From Wielerella bovis (GTDB taxonomy: Bacteria > Pseudomonadota > Gammaproteobacteria > Burkholderiales > Neisseriaceae), in assembly GCF_022354465.1 (NCBI RefSeq), contig NZ_CP092361.1, positions 124,001-188,000 on the forward strand: a stretch of 64,000 nt of DNA. Direction: 5' to 3'. Under the pieces are notes generated by a model, which worked only from the letters and a program-made list of their open reading frames with translations, had not been told where the DNA came from and did no database searches. Below are positions 6,920 to 47,051 of this stretch, piece after piece (positions within the stretch are counted from its first letter, which is position 1; every line of letters begins with the position of its first letter). The translations under genes and the position numbers were made by a program.

Positions 6920-7004
6920 GATGATGTCCTTTGTTGAGGGTTGAATATTTTTCAGGCAGCCTTACAGTACACGACAAAAATCTTTCAGACTGCCTGACAT
7001 CTGT

Positions 7005-7128
7005 TCCCTCCCACGTTGGCGGGGGTGAGTTAGGGTGGGGGTGGTTCGTTGATTTTCAAGACAACTAAATTTATTCCACAAATTTTCCCCCACCCTAGCC
7101 CTCCCCCATTGGAGATTGAGGAGGGGAC
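7005..7128. repeat. GC-rich palindromic repeat (copy 1 of 3)
   Basis: Two G/C-rich arms (one ending ttagggtgggggtgg, the other beginning ccccaccctagccctccccc) are inverted around an AT-rich centre of about 40 bp. Related copies lie inside mutS (12579-12703) and upstream of prfH (46870-46991). I infer a REP-like intergenic mosaic element. It sits upstream of hemL, between that gene and the divergent DUF924 gene. Confidence 0.7.
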
Positions 7129-7300
7129 AGGTTTGCGGTAACTTCAAAAAATTGTCGTATACTGTAAGGCAGCCTGAAAACCGATAATCTGACATAAAAT
7201 AGTGCAAAAACGAAATTTTAACGTTTTTTCCTATTTTCAGGCAGCCTGAAAACGGTAAAATAATACTTTTGACATAATATATCAGTTGAGAGCAAATAAA

Positions 7301-9676: not shown

Positions 9677-10993
9677 TTACAATTTTACTGCTATCGTTCC
9701 TATCTCGCGTTCACCATTTTTCGGCGCATACCATTCAAATTCAATATCTTGCTGTGTCGGGCTTAACCACAATTTCCGATATGGGCTACTCCATTGTTGC
9801 AACACATTTTCCGCCTGATTTTTTCGCTCTGCTTCGGGCAATTTTGCCAAAGTTAAGGCAGCCTGAAACGCACGTAATTTCATATCCGAATCCTGCAAAC
9901 GGCGCGGATACACCGTATAAGATGGCTCTGCCAGATACAATAACACACAACCCGCTACATTCCGCACACACGCAATGTGTTCCCAAACCTTATCTTGCGA
10001 CACGAATTCATCAACCATTTCATCGCTAATCATTTGCTGCTGTACCAATGGGGAACAAGTATACGCCAAAGAAGGGGCGCTTTGTGCAATGGTCATATCT
10101 GCATTGTAAAACAATTTTGTATACCATTTTTCCATACGCTGGAACGTGTTTTTCAGAAACAAAAATTCCCCTTTCATTGCTGCACACATGACTTGCGCAG
10201 TACGTTCCGTTTGTGGCTGCAAATGGCGCACACAACTTTCAGGCAGCCTGTGCGCTAATTCAGGCTGCTGTTGTATAAAATACGCCAAATAATCCGCACT
10301 TTGATTCAACATCACGCTGCTAATCATCGCATCAAGTAACATTTGATGAGTCGTATTTTGCAATTTTCGCGCCAAATCCGCTTGTGTGCACATATTCAAC
10401 ACCGCTTGCTCACGCTGATTATTGTGCCAATTCATTGTGGCTTGAGCTTGTGGAAAACGCACCAAAATCTGAAAAGCAGGCAAACGCATTTGCACCATCA
10501 TGTTTTCATCGCCCCAATTCTTTTCCGCAAAATGCGCCATCTCATAACCATCATATTGATTTAAATCAGCAATATTATTCAATACCGCCTGATATTGATT
10601 GTGCCATTGTTGATACTGTGCCCCATGTTGCGCTACTTTTTCCACACATTTGCTGGGCGTAGCGCATTTCAAAAAATCTGCTTCCCCAATCAAATCCATG
10701 CCCAAATTGCGCTCCGCCAACGCCGCAGGCTCATCGCCGCCCCACAATAAATAATGTTGATGTTTTTCAAATAATTCATAGGCTTGCTGTGCATTTTCCG
10801 TGCGATACGGCAATAAATACAAAGCCGCCGTGCCATCACGCGCAATCAGCGCAAGTGGCTTTGGCTCTTGCAAGATTTTCAGGCTGCTGTTTTGTTTATC
10901 CGCCAACTGATTTTGCGCCAACATCGCCGCCACAAAACACAATAACACCAGCCCCAATATTGCCCATAATCCACGAATAAACCATTGTTTCAT
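9677..10993 (-). CDS. Membrane-anchored protein of unknown function, coupled to mutS
   Basis: A 438-residue protein with one N-terminal membrane segment (about residues 7-27, [18 protein letters not shown]) and a long hydrophilic, mostly helical, presumably periplasmic part. Four or more cysteines fall in patterned spots ([24 protein letters not shown]), suggesting disulfides. The ATG overlaps the TGA of mutS by four bases (ATGA), so translation is coupled to mutS although no shared function is evident. Several DUS-derived bits are translated. I do not recognise the family. Confidence 0.65.
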
Positions 10994-13722
10994 AACAAAC
11001 CTTTCAACTCATACACCAAATCCAAAGCCTGCCGCGCTGTCAATTCATCGGGATTGATTTGTGCCAATTTTGTCGCAATCAGGCTGCCTGAAATATTTTC
11101 CGTTTCATCTTCTGTTTCCACTGGCGCAAACAAATCCAATTGCCTGTCTGCATGTTGATTTTCCAATGATTTCAACTGCTTCTGTGCCGCTTTTAAAGCG
11201 CGTGGCGGCAAACCTGCCAATTTCGCCACCGCAATGCCATAACTTTTCTCCGCCGCACCATCTTGCACATTATGAAGAAAAACAATGTCTTGCCCCTGCT
11301 CCAACGCCGACAAATGCCGATTAAACACAGCTGAATAATTTTCAGGCAGCCTTGTTAATTCAAAATAATGCGTGGCAAACAGCGTGAGTGATTGATTTTT
11401 CTGCAACAAATGTTCCGCAATCGCGTGCGCCAATGCCAAACCGTCAAAAGTGGATGTGCCGCGCCCCACTTCGTCCATTAAAACAAGCGATTGCGGCGTA
11501 GCGTGGTGCAAAATATACGCCGTTTCCGACATTTCCACCATAAACGTGGAACGGTTGCCCGCCAAATCATCGCTTGCGCCAATCCGCGTAAAAATCTGGT
11601 CAATTTTGCCAATAAGTGCTTGTTCTGCTGGCACAAAACAGCCCGTGTGCGCCAACAACACAATCAACGCCACCTGCCGCATATAAGTGGATTTACCGCC
11701 CATATTCGGGCCCGTCAGCAAACACACGCGCTGCGCCGAATCCAGCCGCGTATCATTCGGCGTAAATCGCGTAAGCTGTTGTTCCACCACAGGATGTCGC
11801 CCTGCCACAATGCTCAATTCCGCGCCATCGCTGAATTGCGGCATGGTGTAAGCATACTGCTGCGCCGTGTGCGCGAAACTGCACAACACATCCAAAGTCG
11901 CCGCCGCTTTCGCCGCCTGCTGCAACACATTTAAGGCAGCCTGCAATTGGGTAAGCAATTGTTCATACAATACTTTTTCCAATGCCAATGCTTTATCTTG
12001 CGCCGCCAAAAATTTGTCTTCAAACGCTTTCAATTCGGGCGTGATAAACCGCTCGGCATTTTTCAGCGTTTGGCGACGTTGATAGTCGCTAGGTGCTTGT
12101 TCTGCCTGATTTTTGGATAATTCAATATAAAAACCATGCACGCGGTTAAATTCCACTTTCAGCGTGGACAATTGCGTGCGCTCGCGTTCACGCTGTTCTA
12201 ATTCACGCAAAAAATCATCGCCATGCGTTTGCAAATGGCGTAATTCATCTAACTCATTGTTATAATGATTGTTTATTACGCCACCATCTTTCAGCCACAC
12301 CGATGGTTCGGGCAATAAGGCAGCCTGCAATAATTCGCCCACCGCTTGCGTTTGCGGAAAACATGCCGCCAATGTATCCAATAAACTGCTGTTTGGTAAA
12401 CGAATCTGCTGCAAAATCAGCAAACCATCACGCAACGCCGATAAATCACGCGGTCGCGCCGTTCCCAACGCAATTCGCGCGACAATGCGTTCCATATCCG
12501 CCAGATTTTTCAGGCTGCCTGAAATTTCCTCGCGCGATTGAGGATTGTGTGAATACATTTGAGATTGCGCGACACTTGCCCCCTCCCCCGACTGGCGGGG
12601 GAGGGTTGGGGTGGGGGTGGCACTTTCGGGCGTAGACAAATTTGCATTATCCTCGCTGTTTTGCCCCCACCCTAGCTCTCCCCCGTTAAGGACGGGGGAG
12701 GGAATAGCTTGCAGGCTGCCTGAAAACGAGTTGCCCGAAATCAAGGCTTGCACCGCGTCCAAACGCGCCTGAATATGCTCACGATTTCGCAAAGGATGGT
12801 GCAACCAATGCGCCAACAAACGGCTACCCATGTGCGTCACACATTCATCTAAAACCGAAAACAGCGTAGGCGATTTTTTGCCACTCAAAGTGGCGGTGAT
12901 TTCCAAATTGCGCCGCGTTGCCGCGTCCAGCGCGATAAACTGGTTTTCCGTTTCCAAAGTCAGCGCATCCATATGCGGTGGAAGCTGATTTTGCGTTAAT
13001 TTCAAATAGTTAAGCAATGCACCCGCCGCCGAAATCGCCGCTGAATGCTCGTCTAAATCCAAACCAAAACCGCGCAAATCTTGGCTACCAAAATATTCGG
13101 TTAATAATTTAAACGCGGTATCGGGTGCAAATTGCCATGAATTCAAACGGCTAACGGGGATTTTTGGACAATTTTCAGGCAGCCTGAAATTGGAATCACA
13201 CAATAATTCCGCCACATTCAGCCGCGCCAATTCGTCTACTAATTTATTGATGTCAATGATTTTTACCCGAAACTCGCCGCTTTCCAACGCCGCCCACGCC
13301 AAAGCACTTTGTTTTTTGCCAACAAACAAGGCGGCGACACGGTTGGTTTCCTTGTCTTCCAGCAGCGCAGAATCGGTCAGCGTGCCAGCCGTTACAATGC
13401 GAACGACTTTGCGCTCCACGATTTTTGCCGCGCCCACTTCGCCCACCTGCTCGCAAATCGCCACGCTGCAACCGAGTTTGACCAATTTCGCCAAATGCTG
13501 CTCCACCGCGTGATACGGAACGCCCGCCATTTTGATGGCTTCGCCATTGTGTTGCCCGCGTGTGGTGAGCGTGATGTCCAATAATTTCGCTGCCTGCACC
13601 GCGTCATCAAAAAACAATTCGTAAAAATCGCCCATGCGGTAAAACACCAGCTTGTCGGCGTGTTCGGCTTTGATGGTTAGGTATTGTTGCATCATGGGCG
13701 ATGGCGGTTTGGTGGCGGTCAT
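10990..13722 (-). CDS. mutS: DNA mismatch repair protein MutS
   Basis: A 910-residue protein that binds base mismatches and small loops as a clamp and, with MutL, starts repair. The N-terminal mismatch-binding domain carries the Phe-x-Glu element in [13 protein letters not shown]. The connector, lever and clamp domains follow, then the ATPase with Walker [10 protein letters not shown], the [12 protein letters not shown] segment and a C-terminal HTH. It is about 45-60 residues longer than the usual 850-865. The extra sequence lies at about residues 333-390, just before [14 protein letters not shown], and is a translated GC-rich repeat flanked by DUS (see separate entry). The catalytic parts look intact. 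It is upstream of, and overlaps by four bases, the unknown membrane-anchored gene. Confidence 0.96.
12579..12703. repeat. GC-rich palindromic repeat inside mutS (copy 2 of 3)
   Basis: The sequence has the same two-arm design as the 7005 and 46870 copies (ccctcccccgactggcgggggagggt ... cccccaccctagctctccccc in order, quoted here in part). It is inserted in frame in mutS, read as the peptide [13 protein letters not shown] and neighbours, and flanked by DUS copies that encode SGSL-type peptides. Confidence 0.75.
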
Positions 13723-14035
13723 GGTGTGTTCCTGTGAATGAAAATGCGCGGATTTTACGAGATTTCAGGCTGCCTGAATATGTTTGGAATGTATTTTCCA
13801 GCATATTTAGGCAGCCTGAAAAGCTAAAATCGTGAATGGTATGTGGATTAGATACAATCATTCCATTCACGATAAAAATACAAAAAGCAGCCTGAAACAA
13901 TATTTTCAGGCTGCCTTATTTGTATAGTCGTTTCAAATTAAAATAGGACAAGGCAACAACGACCGCCGTGTACGAGTAGTACATAAGGGCGTTGGCAACG
14001 CTGTACTATTTGTATTTGAAACGACTATAAAACAT
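13723..14035. other. Intergenic region mutS-ftsX: DUS cluster and MITE
   Basis: This 313-bp gap holds four DUS copies (including an inverted pair at 13886-13918 that can end ftsX-proximal transcription) and a Correia-like element at 13923-14029. No gene is seen. Confidence 0.7.
13923..14029. repeat. Correia-like MITE (TAGTCGTTTCAAAT end type)
   Basis: Perfect ends TATAGTCGTTTCAAAT and ATTTGAAACGACTATA enclose the shared core (aggacaaggcaacaacgacc ... gtacataagggcgttggcaacgctgtact). The length is 107 bp and the ends begin and finish in TATA, as expected for TA-target MITEs. This is the cleanest copy of the TAGTCG end type and lies 6 bp past the ftsX stop. Confidence 0.85.
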
Positions 14036-46829: not shown

Positions 46830-46869
46830 TTTTTCAGGCAGCCTGCAACATTCAATACGCCAGTAAGCT

Positions 46870-46991
46870 GCCCCCTCTCCCGCTCGCGGGGGAGGGTTGG
46901 GGTGGGGGTGGCTCTGCCTACCAAACAAATTGGACTTCATGCCCCATATTTATCCCCCACCTAGCCCTCCCCCGCAAGCAGGGGAGGGGAC
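46870..46991. repeat. GC-rich palindromic repeat (copy 3 of 3)
   Basis: The arms ccccctctcccgctcgcggg (followed by ggagggttggggtggggg) and ccccacctagccctcccccgc are inverted around an AT-rich middle, the same layout as at 7005 and 12579. It sits between the unknown gene and prfH. Confidence 0.75.
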
Positions 46992-47051
46992 AGCGTGGTG
47001 GCAAGCATTTTCACTTTCAGGCTGCCTGAAAAACAAAAACAGGAATATTTG

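Follow-up and report, generated by a model that had tools for sequence, protein, structure and literature searches.

An in-frame REPIN-like element in mutS of Wielerella bovis and its association with DNA uptake sequences

How does a repeat that recurs across a genome come to be read as protein within a core DNA repair gene, and what becomes of the enzyme that carries it? We examine this for mutS of the Neisseriaceae genome of Wielerella bovis (G000), in comparison with its closest relative (G019) and a further relative (G010), starting from a window of 64,000 nucleotides, the whole stretch of DNA that was analysed. The initial annotation had described a repeat with flanking DNA uptake sequences (DUS) as translated in mutS, a description borne out by the hairpins, the DUS 17-mers, the open frame and the genome-wide matches given below.

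The insert in MutS and the element within it

The mutS frame (window positions 10990-13722, minus strand) runs without interruption for 910 codons and encodes 910 amino acids, and was identified by the open frame, five Pfam MutS domains and comparison of its model with solved MutS structures, of which 5x9w and 5yk4 are closest, followed by E. coli 1e3m. Domains I-V are present with their conserved motifs intact, and the catalytic and mismatch-binding motifs are conserved. Relative to MutS of related genomes the protein has an additional stretch at residues ~333-398 (positions ~12529-12726, minus strand; delimited by protein alignment with relatives of the family and order and by DNA alignment with G010), with a high content of Pro, Thr, Ser and Gly. 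About 50 added residues had been estimated initially, a figure that falls short of the whole insert of ~66 residues, of which the repeat-derived share alone is ~45 and the remainder comes from DUS-flanking sequence. The insert is in frame, as first reported, and lies in the core of domain III between the helix at 314-333 and the helix at 397-404, not in the clamp; the initial annotation had placed it just before the lever/clamp segment LADMERI. In an AlphaFold model (29-sequence alignment), residues 334-391 have pLDDT below 50 and are without secondary structure, the helices flanking the insert have pLDDT above 90, and the rest of MutS is confident. The insert is probably a disordered surface loop with the fold otherwise intact, as judged from the model, and the surface loop expected earlier is in keeping with this predicted unstructured segment between two domain III helices.

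The MutS stretch could be read in 28 other family and order genomes (one further row, L052, was unreadable), and residues 333-398 are absent from all of these except G019, whose MutS is 95% identical. Within the family, one of 23 relatives with readable alignments (the same closest relative) has the 66-residue insert, and the alignment of relatives that had been suggested as a check thus finds nearly all of them without it. The G010 allele retains one DUS at the site (ISGSLK), with the remainder of the insert absent.

Within the insert lies a REPIN-like element of two inverted hairpin REPs and a spacer (12576-12712, minus strand), recognized by own-genome matches and by its fold; as single-stranded DNA it folds at -37.5 kcal/mol (z = -4.9), and 0 of 200 shuffles were equally stable. 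The interval first marked, 12579-12715, contains both hairpins in inverted order. In the coding sense, the REP hairpin nearer the 5' end spans 12676-12702 (minus strand; from the sequence and its inverted arms) and that nearer the 3' end spans 12581-12605 (minus strand), with 10-nt perfect arms, CCCTCCCCCG/CGGGGGAGGG; inverted arms of 22 nt are found at 12596-12617 and 12664-12685. The spacer (12618-12663, minus strand) encodes ~14 residues and is common to the copies in hrpA and copA, not to intergenic copies. No GTAG or CGTC tag was seen at the hairpin base among the copies listed. DUS-containing 17-mers (TTTCAGGCTGCCTGAAA and a near copy) stand on both sides, 201 nt or 67 codons apart. One DUS-type palindrome (12709-12725, minus strand) abuts the 5' end of the element in the coding sense, 12 nt from the REP arm, and is translated FSGSLQ; the other (12508-12524, minus strand), on the 3' side of the insert, is translated ISGSLK and is also found in the insert-free MutS of G010 and G006. 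A further element of ~107 nt with inverted ends (TATAGTCGTTTCAAAT...), possibly another MITE, lies directly upstream of mutS at 13924-14030.

Copies of the element elsewhere and the fate of MutS

A search of G000 placed the repeat family at ~40 distinct sites, the best with 84% identity over the full length, and two other near-full-length matches to the mutS copy (83-84%) are within hrpA and copA. Ordinary drift of a low-complexity loop unrelated to other repeats would suit the residue composition of the segment, but this reading is ruled out for practical purposes: the DNA matches other sites of the genome along its full length, hairpins and spacer included, and nearly all relatives lack it. 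Most full-length intergenic copies sit within a larger element whose inverted ends centre on TACAGTACACGACA. Two intergenic-type copies are found in the window, at 6984-7133 (plus strand; G000:C1:130984-131133) and at 46869-46997 (plus strand; G000:C1:170869-170997), and in intergenic copies such as the first, the inverted ends of the larger element (TTACAGTACACGACA) are capped by DUS-like palindromes.

In G000 six open frames contain the element, always in one orientation and one reading frame: mutS, hrpA, copA (whose product reads as a copper-type P-type ATPase), ligA, mfd and, as a half copy, mutL (host gene names other than mutS were read by eye from the protein sequences). Like a Rickettsia-type element, the repeat thus occupies one compatible frame in several unrelated genes, and orthologues of relatives without the insert exist for mutS and copA. 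G019 has the element in mutS, hrpA and mfd, and mutL with a decayed trace. A shorter REP variant, VPSP.GRGLGRG, is in frame at matching sites in ligA (G019 and G010) and in mfd and hrpA (G010), and in G010 additionally inside recJ, uvrC and pepN; many small-REP matches at the very start of G010 open reading frames were inspected and discarded as probably non-coding. The G010 ligA (L252) contains two tandem REP-derived inserts, one short-type and one long-type, with a DUS between them. The occurrence in a core repair gene, initially called unusual, is accompanied by further in-frame copies in G000 itself and has published precedents (PMC3733652).

Repair genes make up six of the nine host genes (mutS, mutL, mfd, ligA, recJ and uvrC) and four of the six in G000. 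If repair genes are assumed to be 5-15% of coding DNA, the probability of at least six of nine repair hosts is 1e-6 to 6e-4, a range that serves as a guide only since copies across genomes are not fully independent.

At the hrpA locus (L254; G000:C1:807500-812500), the gene seems to be without its 5' part, the frame starting only downstream of a gene for a REP-associated tyrosine transposase (RAYT) and its REPs, and HrpA is 1202 aa in G000 and 1406 in G019. The G000 hrpA also contains that RAYT's own REP in frame (VGRALMPD..SGINARPTLP), and among frames >300 aa the RAYT1-type REP is in frame only there. In another genus (L205; G023:C1:2204537 region), the corresponding linker of hrpA has REP-derived and acetyltransferase-like segments in frame, so that the linker looks like a recurrent landing site.

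A tree built from the full-length elements places the copies in mutS, hrpA, copA and mfd (G000 and G019) in one clade, separate from all intergenic copies. This clade takes in four of the five in-frame copies of full length; the fifth, in ligA, falls among intergenic-like copies. The spacers measure 43 nt in four in-frame copies and 13 nt in a fifth, lengths that are all 1 modulo 3, and those of intergenic copies vary. The coding frame is open in all in-frame copies and has a stop in 12 of the 16 scorable intergenic copies of G000. The coding copies most likely descend from a copy that was already inside a gene, judging from these sequence comparisons.

Between G000 and G019, the mutS insert has dN 0.107 and dS 0.103 and the rest of the gene dN 0.021 and dS 0.191; the corresponding values are 0.039 and 0.111 versus 0.018 and 0.178 for hrpA, and 0.064 and 0.071 versus 0.079 and 0.513 for mfd. 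The dN/dS of insert versus outside is therefore ~1.0 versus 0.11 in mutS, 0.35 versus 0.10 in hrpA and 0.9 versus 0.15 in mfd, with small counts of substitutions in the inserts (in mutS, 16 nonsynonymous and 5 synonymous). A drifting insert in a constrained MutS suggests a loop tolerated by a working enzyme, and MutS most likely keeps working despite the read-through loop.

The initial annotation had raised the idea that the insert damages MutS and yields a mutator strain, a speculation already made by Di Nocera et al. about other REP-tagged repair genes (PMC3733652). Both this earlier speculation and the share of repair genes among the G000 hosts speak for it; the purifying selection on MutS outside the insert in two insert-bearing genomes, the conserved motifs and the confinement of the insert to a predicted disordered loop that leaves the fold intact all weigh against it. 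Given a dN/dS of ~1 in the insert and the constraint on the remainder of MutS, the mutator reading is not supported, and we consider it very unlikely. Similarly unlikely is that MutS and the other hosts have recruited the insert as a functional disordered segment, for example to bind a partner. Its presence in frame in two genomes would agree with such a role, as would the similar inserts, of a different REP variant, that recur at matching sites when hrpA, ligA and mfd are compared with those of relatives; the near-neutral dN/dS of the inserts of mutS and mfd and the unrelated folds of the host proteins do not.

DNA uptake sequences and the spread of the element

The window contains 76 copies of AGGCAGCCTGAA and 30 copies of AGGCTGCCTGAA, which we take to be kingDUS and simDUS. 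These are the DUS dialects of the Kingella-Simonsiella part of Neisseriaceae (PMC3630211). By an automatic rule, 12 of 16 in-frame copies have a DUS within 25 nt of the element, versus four of 39 intergenic copies (1/20 of the small REP of G010 within 25 nt and 3/19 of those in G000 under a 30-nt limit) and 8.9% of random window positions. By Fisher's test, the excess of in-frame over intergenic copies has p = 5e-6 (1.3e-4 with the nine loci as units), with distances that are imperfect in places: ligA (G000 and G010), mutL and uvrC were scored negative owing to element ends mis-set by the arm finder or to a DUS mismatch, and were left as negatives in the count. In several copies the DUS is directly at the element end (AGGCAGCCTG-CAATCTGTCCCC or its mirror), and the spacing of 12 nt between DUS and element recurs in mutS, hrpA and mfd. 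The copA allele of G019 is empty, and its difference from the G000 allele starts and stops at DUS, a change in which ~28 nt are replaced by ~205 nt with no clean insertion. A search of three genomes for a donor of the non-repeat part of the mutS insert (17 residues) and of the copA insert returned only short DUS-centred matches.

G000 has two RAYT genes (L061 and L062), each with a cognate REP of its own (GTAGGTCGGGCATTGATGCCCGAC and GTAGGGTGGGCAACTCGTTGCCCACG). Both lie between GTAG-type REPs that differ in sequence from the mutS-type repeat, and the RAYTs of G019 likewise carry other REPs. Among RAYT family members of nine genomes whose flanks were scanned, none has the mutS-type repeat on both sides, as a cognate RAYT of a REPIN would; a single copy occurs in the surroundings of one RAYT locus (L214). 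In G010, RAYT was not detected despite very many copies of the repeat.

A rival account would be a REPIN-like element that transposes in the ordinary way and at random, of which only copies with the one open frame in permissive loops survive; DUS would share those loops and transformation would be uninvolved. The element is palindromic and multicopy and the genome has two RAYTs, as this account would have it. DUS are known to sit at permissive sites of the core genome and to be enriched in genome-maintenance genes, and recombination gives rise to many new ones (PMC2397512); a shared preference for loops is therefore a real alternative, and the adjacency may reflect a shared niche. Against random transposition stand the GTAG-type REPs of the RAYTs inspected here and in relatives, the abundance of copies in G010, where no RAYT was detected, the DUS abutting the element end at a repeated spacing, and the apparent derivation of four of the five full-length in-frame copies from one ancestor and not from the intergenic pool. 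We regard this account as possible, if somewhat unlikely.

The explanation that we favour overall, and hold to be reasonably probable, is a non-autonomous REPIN-like element with a gene-adapted lineage, a tolerated loop and DUS-linked spread. The palindromic element, free of stops in one reading frame through both hairpins and the spacer, would depend on other functions for its movement, and its mutS copy would be read through as a disordered loop of ~66 residues at the helix-helix turn of domain III. Copies may pass between genes and establish themselves in permissive loops where DUS are already present, probably when transforming DNA recombines with breakpoints at or close to DUS. Genome-maintenance genes would then be over-represented on account of their many DUS and of the long proteins with tolerant loops that they encode. 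A stronger form of this explanation, in which the coding-adapted palindromic lineage carries the host DUS at its ends and transformation moves copies between genes in frame, with repair genes as their main home, is put forward tentatively and is, in our estimate, decidedly on the unlikely side.

To our knowledge, DUS are not known in bacteria such as Rickettsia and Opitutus. REPs favour repair genes there as well (PMC3733652), so DUS cannot be the general cause of this preference.

Known systems and biological meaning

The REPs reported by Di Nocera et al. in 2013 (PMC3733652) are translated inside genes, many of them for replication and repair, and the phenomenon is thus known in kind. Like those GTAG/CGTC REPs, the present repeats are palindromes, often inverted dimers, in frame; hosts there include uvrABC, DNA ligase, polymerases and RNA helicases, whereas mutS, mutL and mfd are names absent from the main text of that paper. 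The unit described here is also longer (~45 residues and flanks) and shows no GTAG/CGTC tag at the hairpin base, and its coding copies form their own lineage and adjoin DUS. In REPIN/RAYT systems (Bertels and Rainey, 2011; PMC3116915), two inverted REPs and a spacer likewise make a multicopy, hairpin-forming unit, but REPINs lie outside genes and depend on a RAYT that they flank, whereas several copies here are coding and none of the RAYTs examined is flanked by the repeat. Correia/NEMIS (compared by description) and dRS3 are, like the present repeat, small interspersed repeats of Neisseriaceae; unlike dRS3, a CGTC-type REP, the intergenic copies here lie within a larger element with GTACACGACA inverted ends.

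Rickettsia palindromic elements (RPE) are the classic case of in-frame palindromes. RPE and their Wolbachia equivalent, likened here by description, are palindromes of similar size in frame in unrelated and essential genes (PMC3733652); the present element differs in its bacterial class, in belonging to a naturally transformable family and in the DUS at its ends. A search of open-access full texts turned up no description of mutS, mutL or mfd as hosts, of a lineage adapted to coding sequence, or of an association with DUS.

The recurrence of mobile palindromes in DNA repair genes has been a puzzle since at least 2013. The in-frame copies described here lie beside DUS, which show a bias of their own towards genome-maintenance genes and permissive sites (PMC2397512). 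They offer a testable route to this pattern, at least in Neisseriaceae, and point to a repeat lineage adapted to being translated. For annotation, they carry the warning that a loop-like insert in an essential protein may be a piece of mobile DNA rather than a new domain.
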